DNA of 20,825 nucleotides from a virus: IMG/VR virus record IMGVR_UViG_3300032291_001423, positions 1-20,825 of that record. One strand, given 5' to 3'. Each line of letters opens with the position of its first letter. Within the stretch, counting starts at the first letter, position 1. Below, piece after piece: positions 1,123 to 20,825 of this stretch. The notes beneath the pieces are model-generated. The model made no database searches, had not been told where the DNA came from, and worked only from the letters and a program-made list of their open reading frames with translations. Position numbers and translations under genes: made by a program.

Positions 1123-1187
1123 TCTCCTTTCTTACGTACAACTAACTGGTATCCACCGTGGATGATCTCTGCCTCCTTTTCGGTCAT
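1119..1187 (-). CDS. 22-aa microprotein between two ATGA overlaps
   Basis: The ORF encodes 22 residues beginning MTEKEAEIIHGGYQLVVRK. Its ATG (1187-1185) overlaps the TGA of the zinc-ribbon gene by four bases, and its own TGA (1121-1119) overlaps the ATG of the membrane-protein gene by four bases. It therefore fills exactly the gap between two coupled genes, which is the arrangement of real genes in this operon. A purine-rich stretch GGAGAGCAGGGT precedes it. An alternative is that the ORF exists only to couple translation and the peptide itself has no role. No domain is recognisable at this length. Confidence 0.5.
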   Translation of the reverse strand: MTEKEAEIIHGGYQLVVRKKGE

Positions 1188-1654
1188 ACCCTGCTCTCCA
1201 TTACGGCGCTGTAGTCGAAGAACTCAACGCAATCTTTGATTGATATTAACTCGTCGCTGAAGCCTTCAACCTCGGCGTTATATGTGTAGACTTTCTTTGG
1301 TACTTTTATGTTATTCTGCGCAAACAGGATGCCGCTCTGGGTAGCGCGCCAGAAGCCAGAGTGTTTCTTGGTAGGGTCTTCAGTACCCTGCCGCTCCACC
1401 AGGCCCCACCAACGCAGTGTTGGTAGTTGGTTTGATCTTACAAGCCAGCGCGGTGCGTGTTTAGGCACATCCACCCAGTCACCGTCTATACTATGATGTG
1501 CTAGCCAAACTAATGACCGTGCCATAGTCTCGTTAAGGCTACGTGGGTAAACCCTCCCCCACCTATCACAGCAGGGGCAATGACCACCGTCGGCCTCAAT
1601 AGCCCCGCGCCATAGGGCGCGAATTTCATTTAAAAAGCTTTTCCGTTCACTCAT
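1184..1654 (-). CDS. Zinc-ribbon/winged-helix-like phage protein, 156 aa
   Basis: The N-terminal part contains HCPCCDRWGRVYPRSLN (residues 25-41), a Cys/His cluster that could bind one zinc, followed by a helical region (MARSLVWLAHHS) and then RWWGLVERQ and GFWRATQSGILFA, which look like the helix and wing of a winged-helix domain. Similar proteins are common unknowns in phages. A role as a DNA-binding regulator is an inference from this layout only. The ATG at 1654 lies inside the 3' end of the sigma-4 gene (8-bp overlap) and is preceded by GGAAGGAGCAAACCA, one of the shared leaders. Confidence 0.8.
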   Translation of the reverse strand: MSERKSFLNEIRALWRGAIEADGGHCPCCDRWGRVYPRSLNETMARSLVWLAHHSIDGDWVDVPKHAPRWLVRSNQLPTLRWWGLVERQGTEDPTKKHSGFWRATQSGILFAQNNIKVPKKVYTYNAEVEGFSDELISIKDCVEFFDYSAVMESRV

Positions 1655-2267
1655 TGGTTTGCTCCTTCCAAGTTAATGTTTTGTAAGGCGAGTGTGCTCT
1701 TACTTCTTCATCAAAATATTTCTTCAGCCCCCGTGATGGATGCTTCAGCTTGCGGAGTGCCTTACACTCTATCTGCCGAATGCGGGTCTTCGACACACCC
1801 CAATCGCTAGCGATTTCCTCTAAAAGCTCTTCGTCAAAATACCTACGTCTGACTACTTGCTCTTCACGGGGTGTCAGGAGGCTTAAGGCCCCCCTTAAAA
1901 TACGAGATTGCTCGCCCCCTAAGGCCAGCTTGTCGGTGCTTTCACCAGAGGCGAGTTGCTTTACTTGCTCTTCGCTCATGTTGATCTCGTAGTTGTTACG
2001 TTCGAGTGCCATGCCTTGCTGCGCACTGGTCCACAGTTCTTCCGGCTCCACTTGAAGGGCGGACGATAACGCAAAGGCAGCATCTATCCATTCTCCAGTG
2101 TATGTATTCCTCGGCGCTTTACGTAACGTAATGAGGGAGTTCAAAGTTTGCAGGGAAATACCCGTTAGCTTTGCTAACTCGACTTGGCTTTTAATCCCAA
2201 GCTTCTTCATCTGACGTAAAATCAGTCCGTTGCGGATAGTTACTTTAACTGCATATTCACCCGCCAT
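1647..2267 (-). CDS. XRE helix-turn-helix fused to sigma-70 region 4, 206 aa
   Basis: Residues about 10-80 form an XRE/Cro-type DNA-binding domain: SQVELAKLTGISLQTLNSL is the helix-turn-helix, and the domain ends LSSALQVEPEELW, as in bacterial XRE repressors. Residues about 128-180 match region 4 of the housekeeping sigma factor: LTPREEQVVRRRYF (4.1), then VSKTRIRQIECKALRKLKHP (4.2), very close to E. coli RpoD RIRQIEAKALRKLRHPSR. Aligned with RpoD, the -35 reading residues R584 and E585 are replaced by K160 and T161, while R586, R588 and Q589 are kept (R162, R164, Q165). Regions 1.2 to 3 are absent, so it cannot melt a -10 element and is not a full sigma factor. It may place region 4 at XRE-bound sites, compete with host sigma, or act as a repressor. 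The leader is AAGGAGCAAGCT. Confidence 0.9.
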   Translation of the reverse strand: MAGEYAVKVTIRNGLILRQMKKLGIKSQVELAKLTGISLQTLNSLITLRKAPRNTYTGEWIDAAFALSSALQVEPEELWTSAQQGMALERNNYEINMSEEQVKQLASGESTDKLALGGEQSRILRGALSLLTPREEQVVRRRYFDEELLEEIASDWGVSKTRIRQIECKALRKLKHPSRGLKKYFDEEVRAHSPYKTLTWKEQTNE

Positions 2268-2280
2268 AGCTTGCTCCTTC

Positions 2281-2565
2281 TTATGGCCTTAAATGTTCAG
2301 GCATAAACTCGAAGTATACGCTTACGCTGTTACCGGAAGACAACCCGACAGCATTGGCACAATCCTTCCAAGTTTCGCCTTGCCTACGCATTATTGCCAC
2401 TCTGCGTAACTTAACCCCAGTCATCTGCTTATACATATGGCTACCATACTTTGGCCGCCTACGGTTTGTCGGTCTATCTAACCACGCTTGATACTCTTCG
2501 GCAGACGGCACAGTGCTGGGCGTCATATGCATGTCGCGGTATCCTTTTATACCTTTAACCTGCAT
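2281..2565 (-). CDS. Small helix-turn-helix-like phage protein, 94 aa
   Basis: The C-terminal half reads LRRVAIMRRQGETWKDCANA followed by VGLSSGNSVSVYF (residues about 53-85). This is the pattern of a helix-turn-helix in which a 'W-x-x-C/I-A-x-x-V-G' turn leads into a recognition helix. The N-terminal half is rich in Pro, Arg and Lys. A DNA-binding role is inferred from this and from its position between the alpha-CTD-like and sigma-4-like genes. The start ATG at 2565 is supported by the leader AAGATAGGAGCAAGCT, identical to that of the alpha-CTD-like gene upstream. No membrane segment is present. The exact family is not recognised. Confidence 0.75.
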   Translation of the reverse strand: MQVKGIKGYRDMHMTPSTVPSAEEYQAWLDRPTNRRRPKYGSHMYKQMTGVKLRRVAIMRRQGETWKDCANAVGLSSGNSVSVYFEFMPEHLRP

Positions 2566-2574
2566 AGCTTGCTC

Positions 2575-2946
2575 CTATCTTATTGGTGCTATGATGTCGG
2601 TCAGCTTGTTATAGTGTGTAGCTAACATTCTATGTGTGGCTGCGATCTGGTTAATAGTTGCGCGTATATCCTTGAGCGCCTTATACTCCGCCATCTGCTC
2701 TTCTTTAGCGGGGTTATCGGGGTTCTCGACCGCCCACACGATCTCCCGCCACTCGGCCAAAGATTTGCGCCCAAAATTGGGGATGCGCATTAACTCGTGG
2801 TCAGGTATATCTATAAAATCTCCGACAGTTGCGGGCCTTTTTGCGTTTCGAGGGTAGTCCCAATCGTTTATTAGGCAGTGGTGTAGGCGTACACCTATCT
2901 CCAAGTGGTCGATCAACGTGTCCCGTGTTATCTTTCTATCCTCCAT
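2575..2946 (-). CDS. RNA polymerase alpha-CTD-like protein with coiled-coil tail, 123 aa
   Basis: Residues about 12-72 match the C-terminal domain of bacterial RNA polymerase alpha: VRLHHCLIND, TVGDFIDIPDHELMRIPNFG and GRKSLAEW align with E. coli [28 protein letters not shown] and GKKSLTEI. Aligned residues that contact UP-element DNA in E. coli are largely kept: R265 (R20), C269 (C24), N294 (N57), G296 (G59), K298 (K61) and S299 (S62); N268 is His and K271 is Ile. Residues 81-120 are a charged helix that may be a coiled coil. The alpha N-terminal assembly domain is absent. The protein could bind UP-element-like DNA or contact sigma region 4 and activators, but this is inferred. The start at 2946 overlaps the polymerase stop by 11 bp. 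Confidence 0.85.
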   Translation of the reverse strand: MEDRKITRDTLIDHLEIGVRLHHCLINDWDYPRNAKRPATVGDFIDIPDHELMRIPNFGRKSLAEWREIVWAVENPDNPAKEEQMAEYKALKDIRATINQIAATHRMLATHYNKLTDIIAPIR

Positions 2947-4753
2947 AGCTTGCTCCTATCTTGCTCTCACAGTTTAGTGGTAATCCCAGTGCCCACTTGG
3001 GCCTGATCCGCATGCATTGCTCGACGAAGGTGCGGCCTGCGTCAGCGTCATCAATCTTAACCAGCGCGCCGACAGCGTCATGCACGGTCATCACAACAGG
3101 TAGTTTCCGTGCGACCATCAGCATCTGTTCACCGATCACGATCCTAGCCAACGCCTGACACACATTCTCGACAGCCTTCCCGCCATAGATGCGGGTAGGG
3201 ATAGTGGCTCGACCCTTCTTGGTATCGTAGACCATCTCTTGCCTGTCACCCTGCGCCTGGGTTCTTAGCCGTGGGTACTTGATGTACAGGCCGTTGGGTA
3301 ACTTGATGCCGTCTGTATCCACCACCAGCACACCGTCACGCCCTAGGGGTACAGTCTGACCAGCCGTCAATGCAGTCAGTGCGCGTCCTGCTTCCTTCCA
3401 CAGTCGCGGGATCATCGGGTAGGTCTCACGATATACCCTGATGATATACTCACACTCGCTCAGTTCCATATCGACACCGAAAGTCTTTAGCTGTGCCTTA
3501 AACTTAGCAGCACCCATGCCGTACCCTGCGCCAAGGATGGTGGTCTTACCTACGAACCGCTCTTGCTCGGTAACGTCATCGGCTGGTTTGTTATAGATGG
3601 CAGACGCCATGATCTTGTACACATCCTCGCCCTTATCAAAGGCTTCGACCAGATCATCTTGGCCAGCTAGCCACGCCAGTGTACGTGCTTCGATCTGTGA
3701 CGAATCGCAATCGACCAGCAAGTACCCATCTGGTGCGCGTATCGCCTTCTTCAGCGGTGACTTGCGTGGTAGGTTCTGCATGTTCACCTTGTCATCCCCG
3801 CCCCAGCGCCCAGTGTGGGCAGCGTAGTAGCGCAGCGGTATCGGTAGTGTTCCTCGATCTGCGATGTTGATGAACCGTTCGGTGCGTGTCTCTTCCAACG
3901 TGGACTTAACGCCCAGCCGCGCAGCAACGATGGCTTGCACCATAACGTCTTCATGCTCGAGCAGTTCCTTGAATGCCTCGTCGTTCTTAGCAAAGGCATA
4001 GGTCTGCTTACCATTGGCGGGGCTAACCTTCATCGGCACTACAACACCATGAAACTCCAGGAGTTCGGCCAGCTTCGGGTTGCTCATCAGATCGGCCTTG
4101 TCGTAGTTCAGCTTCGACATCAGGGCTTCCTTCTTAGCCTGTACGTCGAGCAGATGGTTCTCCAAGACGCCCTTATCCAGCGTCAGCTTTGGTTCTGTGA
4201 ACATACGGATCGTCAGGTCGATCAGCCGTAACTCTGACGTAGGGAAGCCATCGGCTAGCACCTTGAACATGTCATAGGTAAGTTCGACGTCATTGATGCA
4301 GTAGTCACCGTAACGGGACATCTCTTCCGCTGTGAAGTCTAGCCGCCGCTTGCCTAGCGCATTGATAACCTCTGTACCTTTGACACCTAGGCTAAAGTAT
4401 TCGGCCAGCGATTTGAGGCTAAGGCTGATACCATCTGTGCCATGCAGTGCCCGTGCCATCGACAGTGTGTCCGCAATACGCTTGGGTCGGATATCAAACT
4501 GCCAGTTCAGGATCGCCATATCAAAGACAGCATTGTGCGCGACAGCCACAGCATCATCCCAGGGAAACTGGTCAAGCCACTTCTTCGTTGCGGCCTTCGG
4601 GCCTGAGAACCACTGGGTCTCGCCATCGTTCACCTTCACGGCAACACCAATGGTCTCGAACAATTCGTGACGGACGTATTCTTCGGTGGTGATCTTCGAC
4701 AGACTGAATTGCTGGCTGTAGAATGTCTCAAAGTCGATTGTGATTATGTCCAT
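2936..4753 (-). CDS. polA: Family A DNA polymerase with 3'-5' exonuclease (Leu762 type), 605 aa
   Basis: This is the replicative DNA polymerase. The N-terminal third is a proofreading exonuclease with D7/E9 in DFET (Exo I), N74/D78 in AHNAVFD (Exo II) and Y151/D155 in YCIND (Exo III). The polymerase domain follows: HTGRW (313-317), NMQNLP (324-329), motif A D350 in DSSQIEAR, and the O helix with R399, K403 and Y411. The residue equivalent to E. coli Phe762 is Leu407. Motif C reads VHDA, so catalytic D559 is present but the usual following Glu (E883) is Ala. No 5'-3' exonuclease domain is present, which is usual for phages. The ATG at 4753 overlaps the upstream stop (TGATG) behind AAGGATAAGGTG; an in-frame GTG one codon upstream is less likely. 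Confidence 0.97.
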   Translation of the reverse strand: MDIITIDFETFYSQQFSLSKITTEEYVRHELFETIGVAVKVNDGETQWFSGPKAATKKWLDQFPWDDAVAVAHNAVFDMAILNWQFDIRPKRIADTLSMARALHGTDGISLSLKSLAEYFSLGVKGTEVINALGKRRLDFTAEEMSRYGDYCINDVELTYDMFKVLADGFPTSELRLIDLTIRMFTEPKLTLDKGVLENHLLDVQAKKEALMSKLNYDKADLMSNPKLAELLEFHGVVVPMKVSPANGKQTYAFAKNDEAFKELLEHEDVMVQAIVAARLGVKSTLEETRTERFINIADRGTLPIPLRYYAAHTGRWGGDDKVNMQNLPRKSPLKKAIRAPDGYLLVDCDSSQIEARTLAWLAGQDDLVEAFDKGEDVYKIMASAIYNKPADDVTEQERFVGKTTILGAGYGMGAAKFKAQLKTFGVDMELSECEYIIRVYRETYPMIPRLWKEAGRALTALTAGQTVPLGRDGVLVVDTDGIKLPNGLYIKYPRLRTQAQGDRQEMVYDTKKGRATIPTRIYGGKAVENVCQALARIVIGEQMLMVARKLPVVMTVHDAVGALVKIDDADAGRTFVEQCMRIRPKWALGLPLNCESKIGASYGG

Positions 4754-4953
4754 CACCTTATCCTTGTTACGTGTATGGTGTCGCCATGAGCGCGGGTCAT
4801 GTAATAGCGGTCTGACCGCTCGTTTTGGTTATGTGCAGCGCGGCGAATCAGGTCTTTGTCTCGTGGCGTAGGTGTATCGAACACACGCACCTCGTTTAGT
4901 TCCATCGCGTTGATACCGTACTTAGACTTTCTTATGTCCGTACCAAACGTCAT
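4753..4953 (-). CDS. Small unknown protein, 66 aa
   Basis: The protein begins MTFGTDIRKSKYGINAMEL and is basic and polar, with no recognisable domain. The start is placed at ATG 4953 because it overlaps the TGA of the 42-aa membrane-protein gene (ATGA); the only earlier in-frame candidate is a TTG at 4962. Its stop overlaps the polymerase start as TGATG, so it is probably translationally coupled to the polymerase. A role in replication is suggested by position only. Confidence 0.7.
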   Translation of the reverse strand: MTFGTDIRKSKYGINAMELNEVRVFDTPTPRDKDLIRRAAHNQNERSDRYYMTRAHGDTIHVTRIR

Positions 4954-5078: not shown

Positions 5079-5422
5079 GCTGTTCCCCCCGCTCTTATCC
5101 TGCGTTCCCTGTTCTCAAAAAACTTAAGCAGTGCCTTCAGCAGTGCAGCCGAGCCTTCCTTGGCGTTCTTGTTCCACTTGCGTTCGGAGTCGCTGTTCAA
5201 CCCCATAGAGTTAGCGTTGGGCTTCGCGGTTGTGGCATGCTCTACCTCTGGCTGCACCGCTACGACCTTATCCTCTTTGCCCATCTTTATCTTATCGCGC
5301 AGGGTGGTGACGCGCTTCACATCCACACCGTAGTATGATGCAATGTATTTCATGTCAGTTATGTACCCGATTGCGCGGATGATATCCTGGTCGGTCTGGC
5401 CCACGCCTTTATACTTCGACAT
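5075..5422 (-). CDS. Unknown protein with possible N-terminal helix-turn-helix, 115 aa
   Basis: The first 45 residues (DQDIIRAIGYITDMKYIASY followed by YGVDVKRVTTLRDKIKMG) have the spacing of a small helix-turn-helix. A low-complexity polar linker (residues 50-80) leads to a basic helical tail (AALLKALLKFFENRERRIR). DNA binding is inferred. The ATG at 5422 lies within the DnaA-like gene (14-bp overlap) and has AAGGATAAAG upstream; the TGA overlaps the next ATG. Confidence 0.75.
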   Translation of the reverse strand: MSKYKGVGQTDQDIIRAIGYITDMKYIASYYGVDVKRVTTLRDKIKMGKEDKVVAVQPEVEHATTAKPNANSMGLNSDSERKWNKNAKEGSAALLKALLKFFENRERRIRAGGTA

Positions 5423-5648
5423 TTACTTTATCCTTGTTCAACGCATGAACGATGGTGGTGTGGCAGCGGTTCATAACTCTCCCTATCTCCGTAGTGGAGA
5501 AGCCCTTACCTCGTAGCATTAGTATGCAGTGCAAGCGTACCTCCACCAGCTTCTTGCGGCGCAACGGCCCAAGAACATCATCGATAGTGTAGCCATGTTC
5601 TCGTGCAATCTCATCGATTGCCTCATGGGTTTTCTCTCTCGGGGTCAT
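5409..5648 (-). CDS. Stand-alone DnaA domain IV-like protein, 79 aa
   Basis: Residues about 33-72 resemble the DNA-binding domain IV of DnaA: LVEVRLHCILMLRGKGFSTT, then EIGRVMNRCHTTIVHAL, which aligns with the DnaA signature region around GRDHTTVLHA. The AAA+ domain is absent, so this is only the box-binding part. Similar short proteins are found in phages, where a role in origin recognition or regulation is plausible but unproven. The start is set at ATG 5648 because it overlaps the TGA of the methyltransferase-like gene (ATGA). A much longer ORF reading through from 5867 has a Gln/Thr/Ala-rich N-terminus that is just the shadow of that upstream gene. Confidence 0.8.
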   Translation of the reverse strand: MTPREKTHEAIDEIAREHGYTIDDVLGPLRRKKLVEVRLHCILMLRGKGFSTTEIGRVMNRCHTTIVHALNKDKVNVEV

Positions 5649-6244
5649 ACCTGCCCCCACTGATCCGCCATTGCTTCTGCAATGCCTTTGTATGTTGTAC
5701 TGCGTAGCTTCCACCTGTCCGCACTGGGTGGTAGATAGTGTAGCCGTTGGCGTTGGTTGGCTGGCAGCGCCAGCATCTCTTCCTTGACGTTGTTTGTCGG
5801 CACTAGCGGTGGCAGGTTCTTTAGCCACAGGCATGTTGCCTTTTGTTCCGTGTGCCCAAACATCCAAGGTTGAACAGTCTGCGTCTGCTTCATGCCCCCG
5901 ATCCGTTCCTTTGCATACTTATGCATGATCGGGTTTTCTATCGCGATGCGCTTTATCGGTGCGTCCCACAATTCCTTGAAGAACGCAGCGCCTTCATCCA
6001 GCTTAGCCCAACGACTAGGGTCGCGATGCAACCACGTTACACCACTGTTGGTCATGTATGTGCATGGTGGATGCGCGATTAACATATCCCAGTCGCCATA
6101 AAGAATGTCGGTGATATCACCTTCATGATGCCATTGCGGGTCACCATCAGTCGGCAACAGATCGCACGACCATGCGTCATGCCCCTTGGCACGGAACGCA
6201 TCGCGCACAGTGGCGCTATATTCACAGGCTACTAAAACCCTCAT
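5645..6244 (-). CDS. C5-cytosine-methyltransferase-like phage protein, 199 aa
   Basis: The protein opens with MRVLVACEYSATVRDAFRAK, like the SAM-binding motif I strand and loop of C5 methyltransferases. HPPC (residues 58-61) matches the position of the catalytic Pro-Cys loop (motif IV), and ENP (103-105) matches motif VI. Later stretches QPWMFGHTEQKATCLWL and RSTTYKGIAEAMADQWG are typical of a widespread phage family. At 199 aa it is much shorter than a full DNA methyltransferase and shows no target-recognition domain. It could modify phage DNA, or a nucleotide or other base; the sequence does not decide. It starts at 6244 with an ATGA overlap. Confidence 0.8.
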   Translation of the reverse strand: MRVLVACEYSATVRDAFRAKGHDAWSCDLLPTDGDPQWHHEGDITDILYGDWDMLIAHPPCTYMTNSGVTWLHRDPSRWAKLDEGAAFFKELWDAPIKRIAIENPIMHKYAKERIGGMKQTQTVQPWMFGHTEQKATCLWLKNLPPLVPTNNVKEEMLALPANQRQRLHYLPPSADRWKLRSTTYKGIAEAMADQWGQV

Positions 6245-11430: not shown

Positions 11431-11460
11431 GTCGTTTGCTCCCTTGCTCTTGATGTCCCC

Positions 11461-20020: not shown

Positions 20021-20211
20021 CAAATGAGTTACTGATGTACCTGTCAAAAAAGGTACAAGATGAGATCGACGTAATTAGCGGCGACCTCGCCCGCGGTACT
20101 GCAAAGGATCATGGGGAATATAAATATGCCTGCGGAATTATTCGCGGACTTATGATGTCAAACGGTTTCATCGCTGAAACCGCACAAAGAATGGAACAAG
20201 ACGATGACTGA
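20017..20211 (+). CDS. Small unknown protein, 64 aa
   Basis: The protein begins MTNELLMYLSKKVQDEIDVI and is predicted to be two helices with an acidic end (MEQDDD). Small proteins of this type, with 'YKYACGIIRGL', often follow portal genes in such phages and are unassigned; a virion or chaperone role is only a guess. It has ATGA coupling to the portal gene and an 8-bp overlap with the next gene. Confidence 0.8.
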   Translation: MTNELLMYLSKKVQDEIDVISGDLARGTAKDHGEYKYACGIIRGLMMSNGFIAETAQRMEQDDD

Positions 20212-20638
20212 TATTGTTGGGGTCACCACCCCCTCGTTAGTGGGCCTTAATGGCAAACCCATTGTGGCAGCGGACAAAGAACCCGAAGTTCCGGTAGAAG
20301 ACCGTGCAAAGCAGCTTCCAGACCCATCAGGCTATCGCATCCTGTGCGCTATCCCTGAAGTTGAAGACAAGACCGCTGGCGGTATCTTCAAGGCCGACTC
20401 TACCAAGCAATACGAAGAGCTTACTACTCCAGTGCTTATGGTGCTGAAGATGGGCCCAGATTGCTACAAGGACGAGAAACGCTTCCCGTCTGGCCCATGG
20501 TGCCAAGAAGGTGACTTTATCCTGACCCGCCCGATGGCAGGCAGCCGTGTGAAAATTCACGGTCGTGAGTTCCGCCTAATCAACGACGACAGTGTAGAAG
20601 GTGTTGTTGAAGACCCTCGGGGCATTTCCCGCGCTTAA
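20204..20638 (+). CDS. GroES-like co-chaperonin, 144 aa
   Basis: Residues about 40-135 resemble the GroES/Cpn10 fold: GYRILCAIPEVEDKTAGGIF aligns with the start and mobile loop of GroES (the K-x-A/S-G-G-I segment that contacts GroEL), and PVLMVLKMGPD and WCQEGDFILTRPMAGSRVKI match the later barrel strands. An N-terminal extension of about 40 residues is extra. Phage GroES analogues work with host GroEL to fold capsid proteins, which fits its place after the portal gene. Part of this gene is duplicated at the right edge. Confidence 0.85.
   Translation: MTDIVGVTTPSLVGLNGKPIVAADKEPEVPVEDRAKQLPDPSGYRILCAIPEVEDKTAGGIFKADSTKQYEELTTPVLMVLKMGPDCYKDEKRFPSGPWCQEGDFILTRPMAGSRVKIHGREFRLINDDSVEGVVEDPRGISRA
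20357..20475 (+). repeat. 119-bp direct repeat, copy 1 (within the GroES-like gene)
   Basis: This segment is repeated at 20707-20825 with one mismatch (T at 20362, C at 20712), 350 bp apart; 113 bp from 20363 onward are identical. Both copies are in the same reading frame. Confidence 0.95.
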
Positions 20639-20667: not shown

Positions 20668-20825
20668 ATGACCATGCAGAATGATGACTTCGAGGATTTT
20701 TCCTACGAAGTCGAAGACAAGACCGCTGGCGGTATCTTCAAGGCCGACTCTACCAAGCAATACGAAGAGCTTACTACTCCAGTGCTTATGGTGCTGAAGA
20801 TGGGCCCAGATTGCTACAAGGACGA
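20668..20825 (+). CDS. Partial ORF fused in frame to a GroES-like fragment (probable chimera)
   Basis: A strong ribosome site (AAGGAGAAGTAAA) precedes ATG 20668. The first 13 codons, MTMQNDDFEDFSY, are unique. Then the frame enters the 119-bp repeat copied from the GroES-like gene (EVEDKTAGGIF onward) and runs off the edge. The unique start resembles that of a different, commonly adjacent marine-phage protein whose natural sequence continues with a similar 'EVxDxT' motif. The simplest reading is a true gene start joined to the wrong continuation by assembly at a short shared sequence. Confidence 0.5.
   Translation, partial: MTMQNDDFEDFSYEVEDKTAGGIFKADSTKQYEELTTPVLMVLKMGPDCYKD
20707..20825 (+). 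repeat. 119-bp direct repeat, copy 2 (right edge)
   Basis: This is the second copy of 20357-20475. It ends exactly at the window edge, which is typical of an unresolved assembly graph end; a real recent duplication cannot be excluded. Confidence 0.9.

Follow-up and report, generated by a model that had tools for sequence, protein, structure and literature searches.

A probable accessory-gene slot bordered by copies of a phage DNA polymerase tail

Why would three adjacent genes of a phage begin with the same short sequence? The question arises in a 20,825-nucleotide stretch of viral DNA (IMG/VR record IMGVR_UViG_3300032291_001423, analyzed at full length and here called the window). In it, three neighboring minus-strand genes each start with AGGAGCAAGCTATG (14 bp); they encode a protein like the C-terminal domain (CTD) of RNA polymerase alpha, a helix-turn-helix (HTH)-like protein, and a fusion of an XRE-like HTH to sigma-70 region 4 (XRE-sigma4). 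A preliminary description made from the sequence took the common leader as a sign of matched translation and proposed a module for taking over host transcription. The three copies are real, but the first is no mere leader: it is the end of the coding sequence of the DNA polymerase (pol) gene. The island is probably a gene-acquisition slot, in which this pol-tail junction, comprising a stop codon, a ribosome site, and a start codon, recurs behind cargo genes; the three transcription-like genes seem to be passengers picked up separately, not one takeover machine. The features concerned are the following.

2936-4756, minus strand: DNA polymerase A gene, 606 amino acids, with 3'-5' exonuclease and polymerase domains (PF00476, E = 1.1e-32; PF01612, E = 7.5e-9)
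2936-2962, minus strand: junction 1, the pol 3' end, which supplies the alpha-CTD gene with its ribosome site and ATG (read from the sequence; same position in relatives)
2575-2946, minus strand: alpha-CTD-like gene, 123 amino acids (PF03118 and RpoA chains in the PDB)
2563-2581, minus strand: junction 2, a 19-bp exact copy of junction 1, with the alpha-CTD stop (TAG), a Shine-Dalgarno site, and the HTH start
2281-2565, minus strand: HTH-like gene, 94 amino acids (helical model; no family match above threshold)
2265-2278, minus strand: junction 3, AGGAGCAAGCTATG, ribosome site and XRE-sigma4 start
1647-2267, minus strand: XRE-like HTH and sigma-70 region 4 fusion gene, 206 amino acids (PF04545)
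1652-1665, minus strand: GGAGCAAACCAATG, leader of the gene that follows, matching the general ribosome site of this phage and not a pol-derived junction
1184-1654, minus strand: next gene, 156 amino acids, phrog_2693, function unknown, also downstream of pol in several relatives

The gene calls of the preliminary description were right, and both of its sequence statements proved exact, namely, the same start on three adjacent genes and a 19-bp identity, AAGATAGGAGCAAGCTATG, between the first two (2944-2962 and 2563-2581). The exact string GGAGCAAGCTATG has three copies in the whole window, all on the minus strand (2944-2956, 2563-2575, and 2265-2277), and none elsewhere; the copies have one further base in common, which gives AGGAGCAAGCTATG. 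With about 0.0006 zero-mismatch matches expected in 20.8 kb (4^13 arithmetic), three copies are not due to chance. The pol gene ends AAG ATA GGA GCA AGC TAT GGA GGA TAG, encoding K-I-G-A-S-Y-G-G-stop, and overlaps the alpha-CTD gene by 11 bp (2936-2946). Since the alpha-CTD ATG sits within the pol codons TAT-GGA, what was taken as the first "leader" belongs to the coding sequence of an essential gene; the "leaders" of the second and third genes are best read as copies of the pol tail.

The same arrangement was found in related phages. A pol scan gave 80 viral contigs, fetched regardless of junction (672 kb, the unbiased set), and a junction scan gave 47 further contigs (L086 to L132; L numbers denote loci and F numbers denote gene families). 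These are short-read viral contigs, in which genes were walked rather than taken from curated calls and families were formed by single-linkage clustering. The nearest annotated relatives (~41 to 44% identity) include Pelagibacter phages HTVC027P and HTVC023P, Roseobacter phages CRP-901 and CRP-902, and Planktothrix/Synechococcus phage records. Among close relatives, the gene behind pol almost always begins at position -7 relative to the pol end, within these same codons; this holds for 43 of 44 deduplicated overlap loci, the remaining one being at -4. The pol C terminus is GASYGG in 37 of the 44, and the Gly-Gly-stop dictates the first residues of the next gene (MAD, MED, MAG, or MEV). In L012 and L014, two loci where the next gene does not overlap, the tail is spelled GGC CCC TCC TAC GGG GGC, so that Ser-Tyr-Gly-Gly is encoded by other codons and the ATG is lost, suggesting that the protein sequence is retained for pol and the DNA spelling for the junction. 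Screened against 84,980 bacterial and archaeal genomes, the junction pattern gave 25 matches, mostly in Bacteroidetes contigs, which were taken as unrelated by title alone.

What lies behind this constant border is variable. At least 10 different families occupy the first position after pol in the 44 loci: F0 (15 loci), sigma4-like genes including XRE-sigma4 (9), alpha-CTD (7), HTH (3), F22 with a zinc-ribbon-like Cys pattern (3), a PDDEXK endonuclease family (2), F29 (2), and others. An alpha-CTD, sigma4-like, or HTH gene is present in 21 of the 44 slots. F0 (HPVVELLxARMESHPEEF...), the commonest gene behind pol in distant relatives too (behind pol or cargo in, e.g., L103, L113, and L040), has no meaningful Pfam match and is possibly a polymerase-linked factor.

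Copies of the junction also stand behind cargo genes. Alpha-CTD genes stop within the junction, with ..ATAG directly before GAGCAAGYTATG, whether the gene that follows is F0 (L008, L020, L109, and L113), F30 (L092), or HTH (window). Likewise, GAAGGAGCAAGCTATGGCGG lies behind the HTH gene before XRE-sigma4 in the window and before F0 in L088, L105, L116, L130, and L131. Some other cargo proteins have C-terminal tails (GASYDG, GISYG, GASYGG, GASNGG, GATHDG, and GADHGG) that correspond to the junction in pol's frame. The resemblance of second junctions to the pol junction of their own locus exceeds that obtained when the pairs are shuffled (16 pairs, p ~0.005 to 0.007); in L040, for example, GGAGCGAGCTATG is found in both. 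Scans for sigma70-type promoters and terminators were near chance in this region and, on the coding strand, found neither signal at any junction, and RNA folds at the junction leaders were no better than shuffled sequence.

Could the shared leader instead reflect convergent use of a favorite ribosome site (GGAGCAA-N-ATG), the slot being ordinary variable early-gene DNA? GGAGCAA alone is indeed the string that this phage commonly uses for ribosome binding, and leaders like it are therefore not peculiar to the trio: GGAGCAAACGACATGA has three exact copies at gene starts or close to them (window positions 11442, 11284, and 9073, minus strand), indicating that near-identical ribosome sites are widely reused, and GGAGCAA(N2-5)ATG is common, occurring 153 times on the plus strand of the pol relatives and 9 times on the minus strand of the window. 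The specific part, however, is the GCTATG half, which is unneeded for ribosome binding. In the 672 kb of the unbiased set, to which this enrichment count was confined, GGAGCAAG[CT]TATG has 24 copies, 23 of them at a pol end (19) or at the start of the next gene in a slot (4), and 1 elsewhere. The identity moreover reaches upstream, to 19 bp in the window and in L126, the copies covary with the pol tail of their own locus, and cargo proteins carry pol-like GASYGG tails. Convergence is an unlikely origin for the shared leader.

The distribution of cargo over the pol phylogeny is consistent with an exchange slot. On a tree of 90 pols, the first-gene label changes 7 times for 7 alpha-CTD rows, 3 times for 3 HTH rows, and 10 times for 10 sigma4-like rows, which is the level of shuffled labels. 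All 30 labels together give 51 changes versus 63.5 when shuffled, i.e., some clustering, as expected among near relatives; these counts are of changes, with gain and loss not separated. The nearest pols to that of the window (92% and 88%) carry F29 and XRE-sigma4, respectively, as the first gene. Different genes at one junction that do not track the flanking pol phylogeny are the pattern of modular gene exchange.

What, then, are the three passengers in the window? The domain assignments of the preliminary description were correct for two of them. The alpha-CTD protein matches PF03118 (36.0 bits versus a curated cut-off of 23.8; E = 5.6e-9) and RpoA chains in the PDB (best E = 5.6e-6), and it has the helix-hairpin-helix (HhH) DNA-binding domain of RNA polymerase alpha with a predicted long C-terminal helix. 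Residue roles are those of established work on Escherichia coli alpha. The protein retains equivalents of R265, C269, N294, G296, K298, S299, and E302, as well as of E261 and most of the 265 determinant; the DNA-contact set R265, N268, C269, G296, K298, S299, and E302 reads R, H, C, G, K, S, and E, the only substitution being N268H, at a position that is N in six of eight homologues. It thus resembles RNA polymerase alpha in an HhH domain above the cut-off and in most 265-determinant residues. Unlike alpha, however, it has ~8 extra residues inside the domain and a helical tail of ~50 residues, and the N-terminal dimerization and assembly domain is absent from its 123 residues, of which only ~6 to 77 are matched, by the C-terminal part of the RpoA models. 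Because most contact residues are retained, binding to A/T-rich UP-like DNA and/or to sigma region 4 is plausible.

A wider scan found alpha-CTD at 61 loci. The gene that comes after alpha-CTD is in most cases F0 or resembles a methyltransferase. No tblastn match to the protein was obtained in annotated phage genomes at E <= 0.01, which leaves it without a characterized relative, and our literature search found no paper on free-standing phage alpha-CTD proteins. Alpha-CTD is fused to an HTH in L191 (2-634), L192 (3773-4429), and L169 (3683-4216, by eye) and to F0 in L124, as the second gene after pol. Such fusions suggest that the alpha-CTD serves phages repeatedly as a general-purpose domain for binding DNA or RNA polymerase. 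A second, more canonical alpha-CTD family (PF03118 E ~1e-22 in the parent contigs), absent from the window, lies ~0.4 to 1.3 kb upstream of pol in relatives, as listed here.

L018, 3267-3698: upstream alpha-CTD family
L151, 3908-4333: upstream alpha-CTD family
L155, 3938-4363: upstream alpha-CTD family
L162, 1834-2214: upstream alpha-CTD family
L166, 3953-4333: upstream alpha-CTD family

XRE-sigma4 has a strong region 4 match to RpoD (PF04545, 57.1 bits versus a cut-off of 24.1; E = 1.3e-15), and its N terminus falls just under the HTH_3 (21.8 bits versus 23) and Phage_CI_repr (20.5 versus 22) cut-offs. It retains equivalents of K593, R596, K597, and R603, the sigma surface that contacts alpha-CTD and activators, and has K and T at sigma70 R584 and E585, which read the -35 element. 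The region 4 match is a likeness to sigma-70 and to co-activators of the T4 gp33 type, gp33 being a sigma4-like co-activator of that phage. In contrast to a sigma-70 factor, the domain is fused to an XRE-like HTH, and a Pfam scan at E <= 10 found no sigma region 2 (-10 recognition and core binding), so this is not a complete sigma factor. We therefore expect an accessory factor, which may be operator bound and touch the beta flap, alpha-CTD, or a -35-like site. At least 488 relatives exist in viral contigs, of which 80 were fetched; annotated phages gave 35 records, mostly for the sigma4 part only and including host-type RpoD. In a defense-system library, the sole match was that of the region 4 part to MzaA (E = 4e-9), and we found no paper on XRE-sigma4 fusions. 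For the HTH-like protein, there was no Pfam or NCBIfam match, and its assignment is an inference from a model of moderate confidence (predicted local distance difference test [pLDDT] score, 66.6) with helices at 50-61, 66-72, and 78-86; with a best PDB match of E = 1.2, the model was not assigned to a fold.

These properties bear directly on the proposal that the three proteins make up a single module for taking over host transcription, with mutual contacts at UP-element promoters and matched translation. Part of it stood: two of the proteins carry host holoenzyme domains with most contact residues retained on both the alpha-CTD and the sigma4 side, and no RNA polymerase of the T7 or single-subunit type was found in 17 related contigs (32 to 68 kb) by a search that does find that of T7. 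Alpha-CTD and sigma4-like genes also share slots in L083, L092, and L146 (the last outside the deduplicated set), and HTH and alpha-CTD form a single polypeptide in L191 and L192. The three-gene module did not stand. The trio occurs in 1 of the 44 loci, that of the window, and homologues are scattered and unlinked in related phages, the outcome that the preliminary description itself had named as refuting its proposal: each trio gene is found alone beside pol, with XRE-sigma4 directly behind it in L003 and L112 and the HTH family as the sole trio gene in L029, L088, L105, L116, L130, and L131, where in L088, L105, and others the unrelated F0 follows. Of the 44 loci, 3 have both an alpha-CTD and a sigma4-like gene, 5 have only alpha-CTD, 10 have only a sigma4-like gene, and 26 have neither, which is no co-occurrence beyond chance (Fisher p = 0.68), and none of 81 XRE-sigma4 loci inspected (the 80 fetched, with L004 and duplicates) has alpha-CTD within ~4 kb. 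Because derivation from the pol tail explains the matching leaders, they are weak evidence for matched expression. A single takeover module is accordingly quite improbable. Some facts nonetheless point to a functional theme in the slots, namely, the 21 regulator-type slots among 44, the alpha-CTD fusions, the alpha-CTD genes upstream of pol, and the negative search for a single-subunit RNA polymerase in the 17 contigs.

The PDDEXK cargo raises a further possibility, that homing-type nucleases cut the conserved pol tail and bring passengers into the slot. Conserved essential genes are classic homing targets, and the same slot is occupied in some loci by cargo that resembles PDDEXK_14 endonucleases (E = 3.1e-27) or by a protein with a weak GIY-YIG/HTH_17 match. 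Most slots, that of the window included, nevertheless lack a nuclease, the GIY-YIG match is under its cut-off, and cutting of the pol tail would be a proposal from gene content. We regard homing as a very doubtful account.

Several observations weigh against the reading of the island as a gene-acquisition slot with a recurring pol-tail junction. A second junction copy is present in a minority of slots only, and in L016 and L030 the TATG spelling persists although the next gene does not overlap. The 44-locus counts mix unbiased and junction-searched loci, and F4, the "sigma4-like" family, is a single-linkage cluster, some members of which have weak sigma matches. The model of the alpha-CTD protein was poor (pLDDT, 61.8; predicted template modeling score, 0.29) and was not used for a fold search. 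Recombination was inferred from patterns, not observed directly, and the junction copies could also be explained by tandem duplication on a small scale or by selection favoring a single effective ribosome site.

How might a gene-acquisition slot of this kind work? The pol protein keeps its conserved -GASYGG end, and the stretch is spelled (A)TAGGAGCAAGCTATGG. Read in other frames, it includes an ATG, a stop (TAG), and a Shine-Dalgarno site. A gene attached to the pol-tail ATG would be translated from this predicted ribosome site and presumably coupled to pol. The junction appears to be carried along or formed anew at the 3' ends of cargo genes, so genes could be stacked or exchanged through short junction homology; the window phage would have three stacked in its slot. 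Judging by family membership, the alpha-CTD and XRE-sigma4 proteins may each act on host RNA polymerase individually. In a bolder and more tentative version, which we think somewhat less likely to be right than wrong, the last codons of an essential replication gene are a universal adaptor copied behind each acquired gene, a self-renewing "assembly scar" that stacks host-directed regulators, including free alpha-CTD and sigma4.

Known systems offer partial parallels. Lambdoid "linker" or boundary sequences are short conserved sequences bordering exchanged genes, and morons are single accessory genes that are gained and lost. The slot resembles both in its short conserved border and its gain and loss of single accessory genes; it differs from them in that the border lies within an essential gene's codons and is re-created behind cargo and in that cargo uses the ribosome site of the upstream gene and not its own promoter. 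The PeSLs of T4 reportedly place a promoter and a stem-loop terminator between genes. They share with the window a short repeated element at gene borders and modular shuffling of phage accessory genes, but the window element is pol-tail coding sequence that gives a stop, a ribosome site, and a start, with no promoter or terminator signal and no unusual fold. PMC4503421 cites Arbiol et al. 2010 and Comeau et al. 2014 for such T4-type mobile regulatory cassettes. The closest concept is modular shuffling at short shared borders; new here would be a border made of pol coding DNA that supplies translation signals.

Elsewhere in the window, a DnaA domain IV HTH protein (PF08299, E = 6.4e-9) is encoded at 5409-5867 (minus strand), with a similar protein at 3401-3646 of L004 (by eye). 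A GroES-like (Cpn10) co-chaperonin gene lies at 20204-20638 (plus strand) beside structural genes, and the structural region of CRP-901 also has an annotated GroES. Inside and just after this gene, at the very end of the contig, is a 119-nucleotide direct repeat (20357-20475 and 20707-20825, 99% identical), which looks like an artifact of assembly at the contig end or a recent partial duplication.

There is little explanation so far of how virulent phages acquire genes one at a time while keeping their operons intact. The slot described here pinpoints an exact junction, its derivation from an essential gene, and its reuse behind cargo. It is also a place to seek phage proteins aimed at the host: proteins that bind DNA or resemble RNA polymerase parts are encoded in nearly half of the 44 slots, and no function is known for many of the cargo families.

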